Source of the DNA: Deltaproteobacteria bacterium
Lineage (GTDB): Bacteria; Desulfobacterota; Desulfobulbia; Desulfobulbales; S012-135
Assembly: GCA_015488275.1 (NCBI GenBank)
Contig: WFOD01000287.1
Span: 1 to 48,902 of the forward strand
DNA: 48,902 nt
Direction of reading: 5' to 3'
A program made the translations under genes and the position numbers. The notes beneath the pieces are model-generated. The model saw nothing but the letters and a program-made list of their open reading frames with translations. It did no database searches and was not told the DNA's origin. Below are positions 6,005-48,902 of this stretch, in pieces (position 1 is the first letter of the stretch; every line of letters begins with the position of its first letter).

Positions 6005-9000
6005 ATGGGAGCCCCTGAGGGGGCGAGGGCTTGCGGCTCCTTGGGGGCCGGGAGGTGCTGTATGGCAGGTCGTGGTAGGCGCATGGCGGGAAGAAAGGAG
6101 GGGGCGTTGCGCGTGCGGTTGGCCAAGGCTGGGCGCTGCGGCCCTGTGATGCTAGCGCTGCAGACTCTGTTGGCCTTTCTTTTTTTCGGAAGCGGGCCCT
6201 TGGCCGCCGCCACCATAGAGGTCATCGTGGACAACGATACCCCTGGGGTGATGGACGCCTGGACCGGCTCGTGGAGTACGTCGGGCGGCCCAAATCCGTA
6301 CGGCTCCACCTCTAAGTACACCACCCAGATCGGCGCCACCGCGGTGTGGACGCCCACCTTGCCCCAAGCGGGGCTGTATCAGGTATACGTGTGGTACACC
6401 ACTATTGGCAATCGGGACGAGCAGGCGCCGTACACCATCACCCATGCCTATGGCACCTCTGAGGTGACGCAGAACCAAAAGGCGAACGGCGGTCAGTGGA
6501 ATCTGTTGGGAACCTTTTGCTTCGAGGCGGGCACGGCGGGCAAGGTGACCCTCACCCGCCGGAGCGGCACGGTGCATGGCGGCCACACCAACGCCGATGC
6601 GGTGAAGTTCGTCTATGTGCCGCCCACAGCCCTGTCGCTGGCCGATTCGCCCCTGGACGCCAAGCTCCAGCCGGCGCCGGCGAATATCATGTTCGTACTC
6701 GACGATTCGGGCAGTATGGACTGGGAGTTCATGACGCCACAAGCCGATGGGCTGTTCAACAGCCGGCGCTACGTGTTCGACAATCCGGGCGACAACGTGT
6801 ACTCCGGCGTGCTCACCGGCCAGTACCGGGGCTGGTGGAAATCCCAGTGGTGGGGCTACAATCGTATCTACTATAATCCAACGGTCACCTATACCCCCTG
6901 GCCATCAACGACCACCTACCCGATGGGCGACGCCGACCCGGACACGCCTCGCTCCCACCCGGCCCATTCCTCTCCCACCTTTAACCTGAACGCCACCTAT
7001 CATACGATCACCGTGACGCCGCCCGGCGCGGTGGTCGTGGACAACAAGGATTCTGGTTTTAGCCGCTCTTCTTACTGGAGCGAGTCCGGGGCGGTGCCTG
7101 AGTACAATGGCAGCTCGTACTATACCTATAAAACCGGCATGTGGGCCCGCTGGACGCCCAACCTGTCGCTGAGCGGCAACTACGACGTGTATGCGTTTTG
7201 GACCTGCGGCTGGAACGAGAGCGGAAAGTGCAGTTGGTCGCGGGACGAAAGCGCGCCGTACCTGATCGCTTACGATGGCGGCTCGACCACGGTTTCCGTC
7301 AACCAGCGGTACAACTATGGGCAGTGGAATCTGCTGGCCGCGAGGCTGCCTTTTCGGGCGGGGACCAGCGGCTATGTAACGTTGGAGCATAAAAGCGGTC
7401 ATGCGACGACCAGCGCCGATGCGGTGATGTTCGTGCCGTCGGGCGTCTCCATCGCCTCAGGCGTGATCATCAACGCGCATTACTATACCTTTGACGATAA
7501 GGACGGCGATGGAGAATTGGATACCGGCGAAAACGTGTATCTCGTCAACCTGACCAATCCGATCGAATATTATTTGGTGAACGACAGTGATGGCGACGAG
7601 ATGATCGAGTCGGGCGAGTTGGTGGCGGTGGCCGCCGCCGCGGTGCCGAGCACGGTCAAGACGTATGCTTCGCCCACGGCGGCGGACGCCTATACGCAAG
7701 AGCGGCAGAACTTTGCCAACTGGTATTCGTATTACCGGCGGCGGGAGTTGAGCGCCACCGCCGCGGTGGCCAGCGTGATCGACGGCGTGAGCGGCGTGCG
7801 GATCGGCATCCGGAGCATCAACGGCAAGATCGTCCAGCCGGTGCTCGATATCGACACCTCGTCTGGCGACTATACCGAGCAGTTGCTCGACATCCTTTAT
7901 TCCTACTCCATTTCCGCGCAAGGCACGCCGTTGCGGCGCGGCTTGCAGATGGTGGGCCAGTACTTTCATGCCGCGGACGGCAAGACCGGCGGGCTTGGCT
8001 CGTCACCCATCGCCACGGCGGCGGATGGTGGCGAGTGCCAGCAGAACTTCGCCATTGTCATGACCGATGGGTACTATAACGGTCCCTCGCCTGGGGTGGG
8101 CAACGTCGATGGCGACAACGGCGCGCCCTATGCCGATCTCTACGGTGAGACACTGGCCGATGTGGCGATGTACTACTACGAGAACGACCTTGCGCCGACC
8201 TTGAGCAACCAGGTGCCAGCCACCGACGAGGACCCCGCCACCCATCAGCACATGGTGACCTACGGCATTTCCTTTGGCGTGATCGGCACCCTCAATCCGG
8301 CGGACTATGATTTTGCCAACGGGATCTATCCCACCTGGCCCAATCCCTACGCCCCGCCTGCCTCTCATCGGATCGACGACCTCTGGCACGCCACGGTCAA
8401 CGGCCGGGGCACCTTTGTCAGCGCCGGCAATCCCACGGAGCTCACCAACGCCATTTTGGCCGTGTTGGAGAACATCGAGTCCCGTTCCGGTTCGTCGGCC
8501 GCCGTGGCGGTGAACGGCGATGAACTGTACGAAAGCATTGATGAGGAGATCCGCATGTTCCAGTCGGTGTACAATACAGACGGCTGGTGGGGAGACCTGA
8601 TCGCCTACGAGTTGGATTCCGACACCGGCGCGGTGGTGACCGATTCGCCGTTGTGGGCCGCGGCCACGGTGTTGGAAAACTTTCTCGACACCAATGGCCA
8701 CGATCAGCGCCTCATCGCCACCATGCTCCCCAATGGCACGGGGACGCCCTTCCGCTACGCCAGTCTGGACGCCAGCCAGCAGACGCTCCTCTCCGCCGAT
8801 CCGGCAACGGCCCAGGACATCCTCGCCTTCATCAGGGGCGATAATTCGCAGGAACAGGCAAACGGCGGGTCGTTCCGCGACCGGGTCAAGCGGCTTGGCG
8901 ATATCGTGCACTCCATGGCCGCCTACGATGAGGCCAACGATCTGTTGTTCGTCGGCGCCAACGACGGTATGCTGCACGCCTTCGATCCCGCCACGGGCGC

Positions 9001-43293: not shown

Positions 43294-43344
43294 GGTACGC
43301 CAGGCATGGCGCGCAGCGCCGTGAGTGCGCACCAAATAAAAAAG

Positions 43345-43412
43345 CCCGCAAACCGTTGTGGCTTGCGGGTTTTGTGGACTTCCTTGGAAGCCCTTGGATG
43401 TAAACATGGTGC
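43345..43412. repeat. left direct repeat (att) of integrative element
   Basis: CCCGCAAACCGTTGTGGCTTGCGGGTTTTGTGGACTTCCTTGGAAGCCCTTGGATGTAAACATGGTGC, identical to 48835-48902. Confidence 0.93.
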
Positions 43413-43481: not shown

Positions 43482-43501
43482 TGCCCCCAAAGTTGCCCCC
43501 A
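43482..43501 (+). promoter_or_regulatory. candidate integrase arm-type sites (left)
   Basis: TGCCCCCAAAGTTGCCCCCA, identical 20-mer at 48763-48782. Confidence 0.55.
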
Positions 43502-43803
43502 GATGATCGCCGCTGGGAGGCATTGGGGAGCGCAAAATACCTGTTCACCCCGCCGCGCCAGCATGGCATTTGAGGGATAGGGGGTGGCGTTTTCTGGGGC
43601 CGCAAAGGTCTAGACCGGCGGCCCACCCAATTTTTTTCCGGCGCAGGTTGGTCCCCAAGCGATGGCAAACTTGTCGAAAAAACATTAACTTTTGCTAAAA
43701 TCAGGCAAAGAATTGATTACAAACTTATTAAACTCCGGCTGGCCCCTTGGTCCCACCGATCACCGGGAAGACCATGCCGCACCGCTCACACCGCCAGCCG
43801 TCC

Positions 43804-44211
43804 TCAACGGCCGTGTATGTCGCGTTGCCGCCACCTACCGCACCCCGTTCCTTTCGCCCGCACCGTCCGTCGGTCAGGGGCCGCCTCTTGGCGTTCCCCG
43901 CACCGCTTCAGGTCCGCCGGCAGCCGCCGCCACCCCTCACGCCAGGGGCCGCCGGGCAACGGTCGGACACAACCGGCACCAACACCAGGGATGATCTCCA
44001 GAGCGTTGCAGCCATGACAGCAGGGCGGGACAGAGGCCGGCTCGTGCTGGTCTGGTACAGGTAATTTCCCTCCTTCGGGGGGCGAATCGGGCGAATTGGG
44101 CGAAAACGTTTTGATTTCAGCACGTTGCCTTGGGCGAATGCGGGGCGAATCGGGGCGAATTTCGGGCGAATCATCGAAAAGTTCGGCCAGCAATGCCATT
44201 ACCCTGCTCAT
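43804..44211 (-). CDS. small Cys-rich protein coupled to the PrimPol gene
   Basis: ATGA overlap with the PrimPol stop (ATG 44211-44209, TGA 44210-44208); CCHGCNALEIIPGVGAGCVRPLPGGPWREGWRRLPADLKRC. Confidence 0.6.
   Translation of the reverse strand: MSRVMALLAELFDDSPEIRPDSPRIRPRQRAEIKTFSPNSPDSPPEGGKLPVPDQHEPASVPPCCHGCNALEIIPGVGAGCVRPLPGGPWREGWRRLPADLKRCGERQEAAPDRRTVRAKGTGCGRWRQRDIHGR
44080..44171 (+). repeat. iteron array A, 7 x GGGCGAA(T/A)
   Basis: Copies start at 44080, 44089, 44098, 44132, 44143, 44153, 44164. Confidence 0.93.
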
Positions 44212-46646
44212 CTCTCCATCTCCCGCGTGACAGCGAAAACGATGCCTTCGTTTTCTTCCACCAGGCCCACCTCACCCAAGACTGCCAGCGCGGTATCACG
44301 CCGGGACTGGGATCGTAGATGCTTGGGCGTGACGAGTTTGAGCATGGCGCTCTTGGGGTATTGCAAGCCTGGCCGACGCAACAGCCATTCGTACAGTTGC
44401 AGCGCCCACACTCGTCCCTCGTCGTCATCCTTGCCGTCGAAGACGCGCAGCCATGAATCGAGGGAATACGTGGCTAAGGTGATACCGTTCCTCATTGCCC
44501 CTTCGTCGATTTCCCGTTGCCCGTCGAAAACGGACAACACGGCGGCAATGCGTAGTGCTTGTTCTGTAGCGCGAACCGCGAACGGTTTGATGAGTTTCAG
44601 TATCCCCTCCTCGGTTTTGGCCTGAACCTGCATCTTCTCGTAGAATCTGCACGCCAGCGCCAGCGCCTTCTCCGTGGGACGAATCACGGGAAGGCCAGAG
44701 CAGTCTTCTCCAAGCTCACGGGCCAAGAATTCACGGCACTGAGACCAAAATTCACGGATCGCTGAAAAGCTCTCAGGTTTAAATGGCCGCGCCTTGAGCG
44801 GCCCTGTTGGGGCCGGGCTAGCCAAAAGGAAGCGGGGCCAGAAGCCAACCGTTGTCAACAACGGGTCATGGATTGCCTGATGGGCGATGTCCGGCTGGAC
44901 AAGCCAATGGATCGACAATCGGCGGTCGTAAAGCTGGAGACGGCCGTCCTTGCCTCGCGCAACGGAAAGCTCGCCACCGTCCCATAGCGAGTTGAAATTA
45001 CCAGCCGTCTTCCCTCGCTGCTCCTCGCTCATGCCGTAGCCGGCCAGCATGACGGCAGCTTCACTCGTGAAAACGCCTTGTGACGGAAGCCCCTCTTTGA
45101 AGCCGCGTCGAATTCCCTCGACCGTGCCGTCTTTCAACACCCGGTAAGGTTCACGGGGGAAGACGATTGGCGAGTCGTCTTGCCGCCGGCCGTTGTTTCG
45201 CCGTTCTTGAAGGATCGCCCGATACCGGCGTCCGTCTTTCCGTTGCTGTTCCGTAATCGGCCGCAGGGCCGCTTCTTCTGCTGTACTTTTCCCTTCGCCG
45301 CTTTCAGCTACGGTCAGACAGTACAGCGACAACGGTTTGGTGCCGGCCAGCGTTTCTACGTTCGCCACGCTTTGCGTCAGGAGCGCCACCGTTGCAAGCA
45401 GGCATTGGCCCGCGATCTCCGCCGGCACCTGCCCATTGGTGACAAGCACCTTGCAAGCACCGGCAAGCGGTCCGAGGGCTTCGACTGGGTATGGGGGGCG
45501 ATCCTGGTCTGTGACGCCCCGGAAGAGAAGCCGCCGCGCCTGCTTGAGCATAACGACAACTTCATTTTCGCCCAAAATTCGCCCCCTTTCGCCCGTGTTT
45601 CGCCCGCCAGAATTCCTTGCCCTGCTTGGGTTTTCGCCCAATTCGCCCCTTTCGCCCCTACGCCGGCCAAAACCGGCCTCCTGCAACGCCTTGGCCGCCG
45701 CCTGAAAGTCGCCGCCGTGCTCCAGGTACGAATACACCGAAAAGGCGGAGTGCGGGCCGGTCGGTATGCTGGCGTTCGTGGAGAAGACGAAGAACCAGCC
45801 ATCCTTTAGCGTGGCGCTCGTTCCCTTTTCCTTTCCTGGCCGTGTCCAATGAGCGCCGCCCGGTCCATGCCTGCCGGTGGGCTTCCACCCGTGTCGTTTC
45901 AGCAAGGCCGGCAGCACGTCGCGCCATCTGGCGTTGTACTCGTCGCCAGGCCGGCCGTGAGGGGTGGCGCTCACTGGTTGTCCGGCAGCTTCCACTGGCT
46001 CCTCGGTGAAGGATTGCGCCAGGACGTGGAGTAGCCGCCGTTCTTCAGCCGTAATGACGGGGCACTTTGTCAACTCCCCAGAGATGGCGCGGTAGCCGGC
46101 CGTCGGGACAGTCAAAAAGTAGCCGCCCTCGCCCCTGGTCTCGATTAGGGTCCGCTTTCCGTCCTGGTCGCGGCCAACGGCTAGTTTCAGGTTGCCGTCC
46201 ACCGGTTTCGCGCATCTGTACACCAGATGGTAGCCACCGGACGGTGTTCCCACCTTGACGGTCAGCTTGGCCGCCAAGTCGGGGTCGATCTGCTCCAGGG
46301 CCTCCAGGAAGGGCTGGAACAGGGTAGGCTCGTCAAAATCGAGGCATTCCAGGTTGCCGGAGACCTTGCCCCCGATCACGGCAAGGCCGCAGCCGTCACG
46401 AAATAGGCGGGCTACCTCCCAGAGAGCCATCGGCTCGGACTGATATTGTCGCCATGAGCGGACCGCCGGGGCCTTCGGCTTGTCGTGATGGGTGGGCGGA
46501 AAGACGGGGAGGACCGAAAAATCAGCCTCTAGCAGCCTAGAGGCCGCCTGTTGGACCAAAGGCGCACTTCGCCTGTTCCCCCCCGGTCCGGGGGCCTGTT
46601 GCCGCAGGCATGGGGATACCTCCTCACGCCTTGCGGGCTTCGGCAA
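44208..46646 (-). CDS. bifunctional DNA primase/polymerase (AEP PrimPol) fused to DUF3987 helicase-like domain
   Basis: N-terminal GLAVIGGKVSGNLECLDFDEP, TPSGGYHLVYRC; C-terminal CLTVAESGEGKST P-loop, GVFTSEAAVMLAGYGMSEEQRGKTAGNFNSLWDGGELSVAR. Confidence 0.88.
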   Translation of the reverse strand: MPKPARREEVSPCLRQQAPGPGGNRRSAPLVQQAASRLLEADFSVLPVFPPTHHDKPKAPAVRSWRQYQSEPMALWEVARLFRDGCGLAVIGGKVSGNLECLDFDEPTLFQPFLEALEQIDPDLAAKLTVKVGTPSGGYHLVYRCAKPVDGNLKLAVGRDQDGKRTLIETRGEGGYFLTVPTAGYRAISGELTKCPVITAEERRLLHVLAQSFTEEPVEAAGQPVSATPHGRPGDEYNARWRDVLPALLKRHGWKPTGRHGPGGAHWTRPGKEKGTSATLKDGWFFVFSTNASIPTGPHSAFSVYSYLEHGGDFQAAAKALQEAGFGRRRGERGELGENPSRARNSGGRNTGERGRILGENEVVVMLKQARRLLFRGVTDQDRPPYPVEALGPLAGACKVLVTNGQVPAEIAGQCLLATVALLTQSVANVETLAGTKPLSLYCLTVAESGEGKSTAEEAALRPITEQQRKDGRRYRAILQERRNNGRRQDDSPIVFPREPYRVLKDGTVEGIRRGFKEGLPSQGVFTSEAAVMLAGYGMSEEQRGKTAGNFNSLWDGGELSVARGKDGRLQLYDRRLSIHWLVQPDIAHQAIHDPLLTTVGFWPRFLLASPAPTGPLKARPFKPESFSAIREFWSQCREFLARELGEDCSGLPVIRPTEKALALACRFYEKMQVQAKTEEGILKLIKPFAVRATEQALRIAAVLSVFDGQREIDEGAMRNGITLATYSLDSWLRVFDGKDDDEGRVWALQLYEWLLRRPGLQYPKSAMLKLVTPKHLRSQSRRDTALAVLGEVGLVEENEGIVFAVTREMER
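45566..45657 (-). repeat. iteron array B, 7 x GGGCGAA(T/A) on the - strand
   Basis: Reverse-strand copies begin at 45657, 45648, 45639, 45605, 45594, 45584, 45573; same spacing as array A. Confidence 0.93.
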
Positions 46647-46857
46647 TGGTCTGGTCCATCCATGCCTGGATCTCGCTTTCCAGCCAGACGACAGTGCGGG
46701 GGCCGATAGTGATGGACTTCGGGAAGAGGCCGCGCTTCATGCGTTCATAGATAGTGGTGCGGGCCAGGCCAGTGATGACCATCACGTCCTTGATTCGCAG
46801 GAAGCGACCGGTAGAGGTGGGAGGATGATGTCGGAGAGAATTTGTGTTTGTGGGCAT
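46624..46857 (-). CDS. AlpA-like helix-turn-helix regulator/excisionase
   Basis: RFLRIKDVMVITGLARTTIYERMKRGLFPKSITIGPRTVVWLESEIQAWMDQTIAEARKA. Confidence 0.92.
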   Translation of the reverse strand: MPTNTNSLRHHPPTSTGRFLRIKDVMVITGLARTTIYERMKRGLFPKSITIGPRTVVWLESEIQAWMDQTIAEARKA

Positions 46858-47451: not shown

Positions 47452-48681
47452 TCAGCCGGCCGCTCTGAAGGGGACTACCTTTGGGGGCTTGCTGGCCGCC
47501 AGCTGGTCTAGGTAGTCGGCCCAGGTCTGCATCATCTTCCGTCGGTCTGCCAGATACTCGGATCGGTGATAGGCGGCCCGCACCTTGTTCCGTTCGGCAT
47601 GGGCAAGCTGGCGTTCGATCACGTCCGGCCGCCAGCCCATTTCATTCAGGATGGTGGATGCCGTGGCCCGGAAGCCGTGCGGGGTTGCCCGCTGGTGGTA
47701 ACCCATGCGGTACATGGCGTAGAGCAGGGTATTCTCGCTCATGGGCTTTTCGGGCTTGTTCTGCTGGGGGAAGACCAGCCGGCCATTGCCGGTCAAGGCA
47801 TGGATTTCCTGGAGCACTGCAACGGCCTGTCGGCTCAAGGGAACGATGTGCTCTTTTCTCATCTTCATCCGTTCGGCCGGAATCCGCCAGGTGGGGGCAT
47901 CTCCCTCAAGCTGGAATTCCTGCCATTCGGCGGCCCGTAATTCGCCGGGCCGGACAAAGGTCAGCAACAGCAAGCGCAGGGCCAGCTTGGTGAGAAGATG
48001 CCCGTCATAGGCGTCCAGCCTGGTCAAGAATTCGGGAAGATCGGCTTCTTTCAGGGCCGGCCGGTGGGTCACCTTTCGGGTCTTGAGAGCGCCTTGCAGG
48101 TCGGCCGCCGGGTTGCGGTCGCAGTAGCCGGCGGCAATGCCATAACGGAACACCGCGCCGCTACGCTGTAACAGACGGCTTGCAACGTCCAAGGCTCCAC
48201 GGGCCTCCACCGCCCGCAGCGCCTGGAGCAGTTCCTTGGGGGAGATTTCTGCAAGCGGTCGATGCCCGAGAACCGGGAACAGGTCTTTCTCCAGGGATTG
48301 CAGAACCCGCTTGCCGTGCTCTTCGGTCCAGCGTCCAACCTGCTTGTCGATCCATTCCCTGGCGACACGCTCAAAGGTTGTGCTGGCGCGCTTTTCCTCG
48401 GCCAGCTTGCGGGCCTTTCGTTCTTCGGCCGGGTCGATGCCGGCCTTGAGCAAGTCCTTGGCCTTGTCACGCTCCTTCCTTGCCTCGGCCAGGGAAACCT
48501 TGGGGAAGACGCCCAGACTGATTCGCTTCTCCTTGGGGCCGATCCGATACTTCAGCCGCCACCATTTGCTCCCGCTGGGGGCGACTTCGATGTACAGGCC
48601 GCCACCGTCGAACATCTTGTAGGGCTTTTCTCGTGGTTTCGCGGCCTTGATCTCAACGACAGTCAGCTTTCCGGTACTCAT
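47452..48681 (-). CDS. int: tyrosine recombinase/integrase (P4-type, DUF4102 N-terminus)
   Basis: LTVVEIKAAKPREKPYKMFDGGGLYIEVAPSGSKWWRLKYRIGPKEKRISLGVFPKVSLAEAR; catalytic LTFVRPGELRAAEWQEF, TPHGFRATASTILNE, QLAHAERNKVRAAYHRSEYLADRRKMMQTWADYL. Confidence 0.97.
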   Translation of the reverse strand: MSTGKLTVVEIKAAKPREKPYKMFDGGGLYIEVAPSGSKWWRLKYRIGPKEKRISLGVFPKVSLAEARKERDKAKDLLKAGIDPAEERKARKLAEEKRASTTFERVAREWIDKQVGRWTEEHGKRVLQSLEKDLFPVLGHRPLAEISPKELLQALRAVEARGALDVASRLLQRSGAVFRYGIAAGYCDRNPAADLQGALKTRKVTHRPALKEADLPEFLTRLDAYDGHLLTKLALRLLLLTFVRPGELRAAEWQEFQLEGDAPTWRIPAERMKMRKEHIVPLSRQAVAVLQEIHALTGNGRLVFPQQNKPEKPMSENTLLYAMYRMGYHQRATPHGFRATASTILNEMGWRPDVIERQLAHAERNKVRAAYHRSEYLADRRKMMQTWADYLDQLAASKPPKVVPFRAAG

Positions 48682-48740: not shown

Positions 48741-48782
48741 TTGCCCCCATTTTTGAATCTACTGCCCCCAAAGTTGCCCCCA
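48741..48782 (+). promoter_or_regulatory. candidate integrase arm-type sites (right)
   Basis: TTGCCCCCA at 48741, TGCCCCCA at 48763, TTGCCCCCA at 48774. Confidence 0.55.
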
Positions 48783-48834
48783 TTTGTCCCCGGATGTCAA
48801 GGGGTTTTTTTGGACGTTCTCGGACAAGAAAAAA

Positions 48835-48902
48835 CCCGCAAACCGTTGTGGCTTGCGGGTTTTGTGGACTTCCTTGGAAGCCCTTGGATGTAAACATGGT
48901 GC
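48835..48902. repeat. right direct repeat (att), runs into window end
   Basis: 68-bp identity to 43345-43412. Confidence 0.93.

Follow-up and report, generated by a model that had tools for sequence, protein, structure and literature searches.

Mirrored iteron arrays on either side of a DUF3987 helicase-coding segment: a candidate split replication origin in a Desulfobulbales mobile element

The window analysed here (the whole stretch of 48,902 nt, from a Deltaproteobacteria bacterium of the order Desulfobulbales) contains an element of ~5.49 kb, bounded by 74-nt direct repeats that are 99% identical, lie 5490 bp apart and are located 89 bp beyond a tRNA-Val gene. The ORFs between the 74-nt repeats are int, alpA, rep (the primase-helicase gene) and small ORFs, and a genome search found the element to be single-copy in its own genome. 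The 74-nt repeat contains a terminator-like hairpin; separately, an AT-rich stretch at 43668-43738 stands out in the otherwise GC-rich element. The features are, from left to right:

43339-43412, + strand: left 74-nt direct repeat (attachment-site repeat), 99% identical to 48829-48902
43482-43501, + strand: left copy of a 20-nt repeat internal to the element ends, possible arm site for the integrase
43668-43738, no strand: AT-rich stretch (73% A+T) between array A and the left attachment repeat, possible melting region
43804-44211, - strand: downstream ORF of 135 aa, overlapping rep by ATGA
44080-44171, + strand: array A, seven GGGCGAA(T/A) iterons with motif positions 44080, 44089, 44098, 44132, 44143, 44153 and 44164
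44208-46646, - strand: PrimPol-DUF3987 primase-helicase of 812 aa (Pfam Prim-Pol and DUF3987), proposed initiator
44232-44432, - strand: C-terminal winged-helix-like domain, residues 739-805 (AlphaFold secondary structure), candidate iteron reader
44436-45431, - strand: DUF3987 helicase domain with predicted MCM-like AAA+ fold (AlphaFold model, fold match)
45566-45657, - strand: array B, seven GGGCGAA(A/T) iterons with motif positions 45657, 45648, 45639, 45605, 45594, 45584 and 45573
45588-45659, - strand: linker residues 330-353, predicted to be disordered (pLDDT below 50) and encoded by array B
46083-46538, - strand: Prim-Pol domain, residues 37-188 (Pfam)
46624-46857, - strand: AlpA-like HTH protein (Pfam Phage_AlpA, 3.8e-20)
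47452-48681, - strand: tyrosine integrase of the P4/CP4-57 type (Pfam; 48% identity to P4 Int)
48763-48782, + strand: right copy of the 20-nt repeat, likewise a possible arm site for the integrase
48829-48902, + strand: right copy of the 74-nt direct repeat, coinciding exactly with the contig end

Arrays A and B have a spacing of 9-9-34-11-10-11 and a span of 92 bp in common, with iteron offsets of 0, 9, 18, 52, 63, 73 and 84 in both, and are mirrored in orientation, so that array A reads TTCGCCC on the gene strand. The pair had been noticed in an initial, sequence-only reading of the window, and on recount all 14 octamer coordinates, the strands, the copy number and the spacing proved correct, as did the remark that offsets 52, 63, 73 and 84 fall near multiples of 10.5 (they do so within 0.5 bp). 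The octamer GGGCGAAW occurs 21 times in the window versus 6.4 expected, and 14 of the 21 occurrences make up the two arrays. That reading had also called for a comparison with shuffled sequence. In a motif-free geometry scan (the consensus score of seven 7-mers placed at the array offsets, with a maximum of 49) both arrays scored 49/49, whereas the maxima for 60 shuffles of the whole window ranged from 32 to 36. Between A and B the iterons are identical at 49/49 positions and the non-iteron positions at 14/42, which bears out the earlier statement that the spacers match at chance level and argues against a recent inverted duplication.

Both arrays lie in coding sequence, separated by ~1.4 kb of helicase-coding DNA. 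Array A begins 37 nt past the rep stop codon, a PICI-like position 3' of the initiator gene, and falls within the start of the next ORF, where it encodes an SPxSP-type N-terminal linker; the N-terminus of this ORF is conserved as LLAE(V/L)FDDSPEI. Array B is located within the PrimPol-DUF3987 ORF itself, between the two enzymatic domains. The iterons of any one array occupy two or more codon phases.

The AlphaFold model of the helicase half has a mean pLDDT of 85.6, and in Foldseek its core resembles MCM helicases with a probability of 1.0, at TM-scores of only about 0.3-0.4. At the C-terminus of the model helices and strands follow one another as in a winged helix, which makes this predicted DNA-binding domain a candidate for the part of the protein that reads the iterons. 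The Prim-Pol and helicase halves are homologous to different sets of proteins: the primase half matches PrimPol-DUF3987 proteins elsewhere, mostly at 42-49% over ~300 aa, and this homology stops at residues 321-329, while homology to the closest helicase relative (G205, see below) begins at about residue 327. Judged by these alignments, the PrimPol-DUF3987 gene looks chimeric (45588-46646 and the remainder), with primase and helicase halves from separate lineages. Since the homology breaks at residues 327-331, which mark the domain-swap junction, and the first iteron of array B begins in codon 330, the exchange of the primase half falls at array B. The coincidence is suggestive only, as a disordered linker is a natural junction site anyway.

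Two loci that share the helicase half only were found among 258 genomes of the order (a search of the class gave the same 258): G205, from a Deltaproteobacteria MAG (63% identity), and G169, from a Desulfobulbaceae MAG (55%). Their primase half is different, with weak Toprim-like matches below the Pfam cut-offs and no Prim-Pol. Both loci keep the mirrored pair, and both arrays of each carry GGGCTAA where the window has GGGCGAA. The downstream arrays retain 11-10-11-34-9-9, unchanged from the window, and the linker arrays read 9-9-35-11-10-11; one copy per downstream array and three per linker array are imperfect. Thus the motif changed jointly in both arrays with the geometry nearly unchanged, as looked for in an iteron origin recognised by its initiator. 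In G205 and G169 both arrays are shifted by one reading frame against those of the window and the motif has stayed, which points to selection acting on the DNA. In a tree of 29 helicase halves, which has long branches and leaves several deep forks open, the window, G205 and G169 form one clade with 100/100 support, and a single origin of the split is therefore enough. The proposal that a protein-DNA geometry has been selected, as opposed to a recent duplication, is supported by these relatives, which keep the spacing with a changed motif. The claim of exact spacing stands for the two arrays of the window and has to be relaxed elsewhere, where the 34 becomes 35 (linker arrays of G205 and G169) or 33 (other loci). 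An AT-rich melting region adjoining the arrays is not a conserved feature of the three loci: the highest-ranking AT windows of G205 and G169 include none at the matching place.

To place the arrays in the wider family, we compiled DUF3987 loci from plasmids and viral contigs as well as from the order and the phylum. Of 73 such loci, 18 have an exact inverted pair of 9-9 triplets; among 1460 shuffles there was none, and among 90 control regions taken from the same contigs there was 1. One of these 18 pairs, at L104, is palindromic (CGATCG), lies within the ORF and may be due to chance. Single 9-9 triplets between -300 and +700 of the gene end were found at 26/72 loci versus 2/511 control regions of 1 kb; 24 of the 26 have a GCKA core. 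Many relatives have direct triplets with no detected mirrored partner. By these tests about two thirds of the DUF3987 loci lack a 9-9 triplet, so not every member of the family has the system; the loci of E. coli K-12 yfjI and of Legionella likewise gave no array by these tests. The fuller geometry recurs at a distance: a DUF3987 locus on a Pseudomonas putida plasmid has 9-9-34-11, the viral contig L106 has an adjacent palindrome of 9-9-34-11-10 / 10-11-34-9-9, and L051 to L053 have the fuller geometry with a gap of 33 bp. The P. putida plasmid and L106 have GGCGAC iterons and a GPRFARKS segment in common, and inspection of recognition-helix letters against motif over the whole set gave no clear code.

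At nearly all paired loci the two sets lie close together (roughly 10-140 bp) directly after the helicase gene, often facing inward. Only in the window, G205 and G169 is the pair split across helicase-coding DNA, and these three have no second downstream array. Two other loci have additional GTAGCA arrays: L058 (G135), ~1.5 kb before the ORF end at the primase-helicase junction, and L102, near the ORF start. Both of these arrays lie at the 5' edge of the DUF3987 domain and are oriented oppositely to array B, and both loci have paired arrays downstream as well. The comparison of homologous elements suggested at the outset thus came out in favour of the arrays: in G205 and G169 the pair and its spacing persist with a different motif, and paired arrays also follow the gene in distant DUF3987 replicons.

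Several observations from the same survey are recorded here. Small ORFs after DUF3987 genes (L079 8495-8854, L101 and L125) encode the tripeptide repeats VASVAAVA, AIPAIPAI and TLATLATLA, which are iterons in frame, and origins of this sort might be searched for by such peptide repeats. The Psychrobacter plasmids pA52P5 and pA37P2 (L080 and L081) carry TTAAGC/GCTTAA paired arrays just 3' of the DUF3987 gene together with repM, and possibly possess two replicons each. A different layout is seen at L050 (G107), where mirrored four-copy GTGACA arrays with 8-bp spacing (1287-1311 and 1742-1766) lie upstream of the DUF3987 gene, and at L062 (G049:C91) paired CCATCG/CGATGG arrays with spacing 11-11-35-9 (7858-7962) are found near a gene that matches residues 224-356 of the window protein. 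Viral contigs searched with the single protein and with a three-sequence alignment gave no close relatives, and a phage collection gave matches to the PrimPol half only. The one viral-contig match to a GGGCKAA array pattern, L100, was rejected as an unrelated phage locus with a GEE-encoding repeat.

Taken with the pairs in relatives and in distant DUF3987 replicons, the arrangement argues that arrays A and B are probably two half-sites of a single iteron origin, bound by the DUF3987 helicase of the element. A bipartite iteron origin, as first suggested, thus remains the likeliest reading, with the amendment that the widely separated pair is the exception among paired relatives. The helicase, probably through its C-terminal winged helix, would bind the seven sites of each inward-facing half, and helicases would be assembled at each half-origin. 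In what would be the usual form, both halves adjoin just 3' of the helicase gene; in the split clade one half would have been placed, or retained, in the primase-helicase linker. A combined complex could then arise only if the ~1.4 kb of helicase-coding DNA between the halves were bridged, by looping or oligomerisation, probably in the way that DnaA bridges the origin halves of Helicobacter pylori and Bacillus subtilis (PMC8235120).

The main competing explanation is that array A alone is the working origin and that B is a control site, serving rep autoregulation or, by pairing with A, handcuffing and copy control, and dispensable for initiation. Array A does occupy the standard PICI-type position directly 3' of rep, and the additional arrays of G135 (at the primase-helicase junction) and L102 (at the start of the DUF3987 ORF) exist despite downstream pairs. 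Moreover, B is more degenerate than A in both G205 and G169, so it may be accessory or regulatory. However, array B of the window keeps seven copies and the helical phasing of A and is oriented as the missing upstream half would be, and no second downstream array is seen at the three split loci. We regard an origin consisting of A alone as unlikely. The split form is known from three loci only. A still less credible option is that the arrays serve excision or transcription as sites for another protein of the element. The candidates would be AlpA, which is of the HTH type, and the Cys-rich protein of the small downstream ORF, which carries array A. However, arrays lie beside DUF3987 genes at loci with no AlpA homologue by tblastn (the P. 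putida plasmid, G429 and L101), and the downstream ORFs share little besides their iteron-coded N-terminus. Finally, we give almost no credence to the repeats acting as RNA (a long-range duplex in one transcript) or as functional tripeptide linkers: while A and B on the gene strand are antiparallel complements in register and the encoded peptides look repetitive (GERGELGEN; FSPNSPDSP), 5 of the 14 iteron pairs in G205 and G169 are non-complementary with the motif still recognisable, the spacers match at chance (14/42), the iterons fall in several codon phases with frame shifts between relatives, and many relatives have the direct triplets with no detected mirrored partner.

Of known systems, the PICI/SaPI pri-rep-ori unit, exemplified by EcCICFT073, is the closest to the two-half-site arrangement, and the DUF3987 arrays fit this kind of origin by analogy. 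PICI origins consist of two iteron sets directly 3' of rep with an AT-rich region between them, and rep plus ori of EcCICFT073 support plasmid replication, as tested in E. coli (PMC6092414); its ori sequence has inverted TCTACC/GGTAGA repeats at 9-11 bp in both orientations. The two systems share two sets of short iterons, an initiator with primase and helicase, and an ori 3' of rep. The window differs in that its sets are ~1.4 kb apart around helicase-coding DNA, are both in coding sequence and have an identical seven-site geometry, and in that the AT-rich stretch (43668-43738) lies outside the halves, with none between them. Satellite phage P4, the analogy drawn in the sequence-only reading, does have two separated cis-acting iteron sites, needed for its replication and one of them (crr) directly after the alpha gene, as well as relatives of the integrase and AlpA and a primase-helicase fusion. 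The likeness is looser than to the PICI ori, though: P4 ori and crr differ in geometry from each other, neither is inside alpha, the iterons are of the GGTGAA type and alpha is not annotated as DUF3987. In gene content, too, the element departs from P4-like satellites, its protein being PrimPol-DUF3987 and there being no room for late genes (sid, psu, delta).

By its genes the element resembles the PICMIs, elements of 5-6 kb with int, alpA and a DUF3987-type primase and no capsid genes (PMC10803314): the ~5.49-kb unit has the integrase, AlpA and DUF3987/DUF5906-class primase of such a small element. As published, PICMIs are Vibrionaceae elements located at fis, and iterons are not mentioned in PMC10803314; a virulent helper phage mobilises PICMIs. 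In contrast, the repeats of the window are near tRNA-Val, and its closest helicase relatives are from Deltaproteobacteria and Desulfobulbaceae MAGs. B. subtilis and H. pylori have a bipartite oriC in which dnaA lies between two clusters of initiator boxes, and DnaA bridges the halves with the intervening DNA looped out (PMC8235120). These are chromosomal origins served by DnaA, whereas one of the clusters in the window falls within the gene of the proposed initiator, between the primase and helicase domains. A further comparison is with the lambdoid phages, whose O protein is not a helicase. Their ori has its iterons inside the coding sequence of the initiator gene O (PMC7466680); unlike the window, it is a single cluster of four to six palindromic iterons beside an AT-rich region, with no second mirrored cluster.

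Paired iteron sets after a primase-helicase gene and intragenic iterons as such are therefore already known, and the earlier surmise that the arrangement was possibly undescribed for PrimPol-DUF3987 elements has to be narrowed: paired sets 3' of rep have been published as the PICI ori (PMC6092414), and of the paired layout it is the split form that appears new. DUF3987 (YfjI) helicases are present in satellites, islands and plasmids. In open PMC papers we found no origin for them, and there they figure only as predicted helicases or primases. Within that literature, it appears to be new that DUF3987 replicons carry iteron arrays with a common core motif and geometry, and the split, partly intragenic form likewise appears new.

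The place of the junction allows a more speculative extension of the two-half-site reading, which we offer tentatively and with some doubt: the segment [array B - DUF3987 - array A] may move as one cassette, with the helicase domain bracketed by its half-origins. Primase halves (PrimPol here, Toprim-like in G205 and G169) would be swapped at B, the specificity of the initiator would never be parted from its complete cognate origin, and initiation would loop out the helicase-coding DNA. The arrays give a handle on DUF3987 replicons, with a readable GCKA core, a defined geometry and natural motif swaps between relatives. The split form is a compact system for asking whether two half-sites across their own initiator gene can serve as an origin, and how an origin lying within genes limits or steers the exchange of domains in mobile elements.
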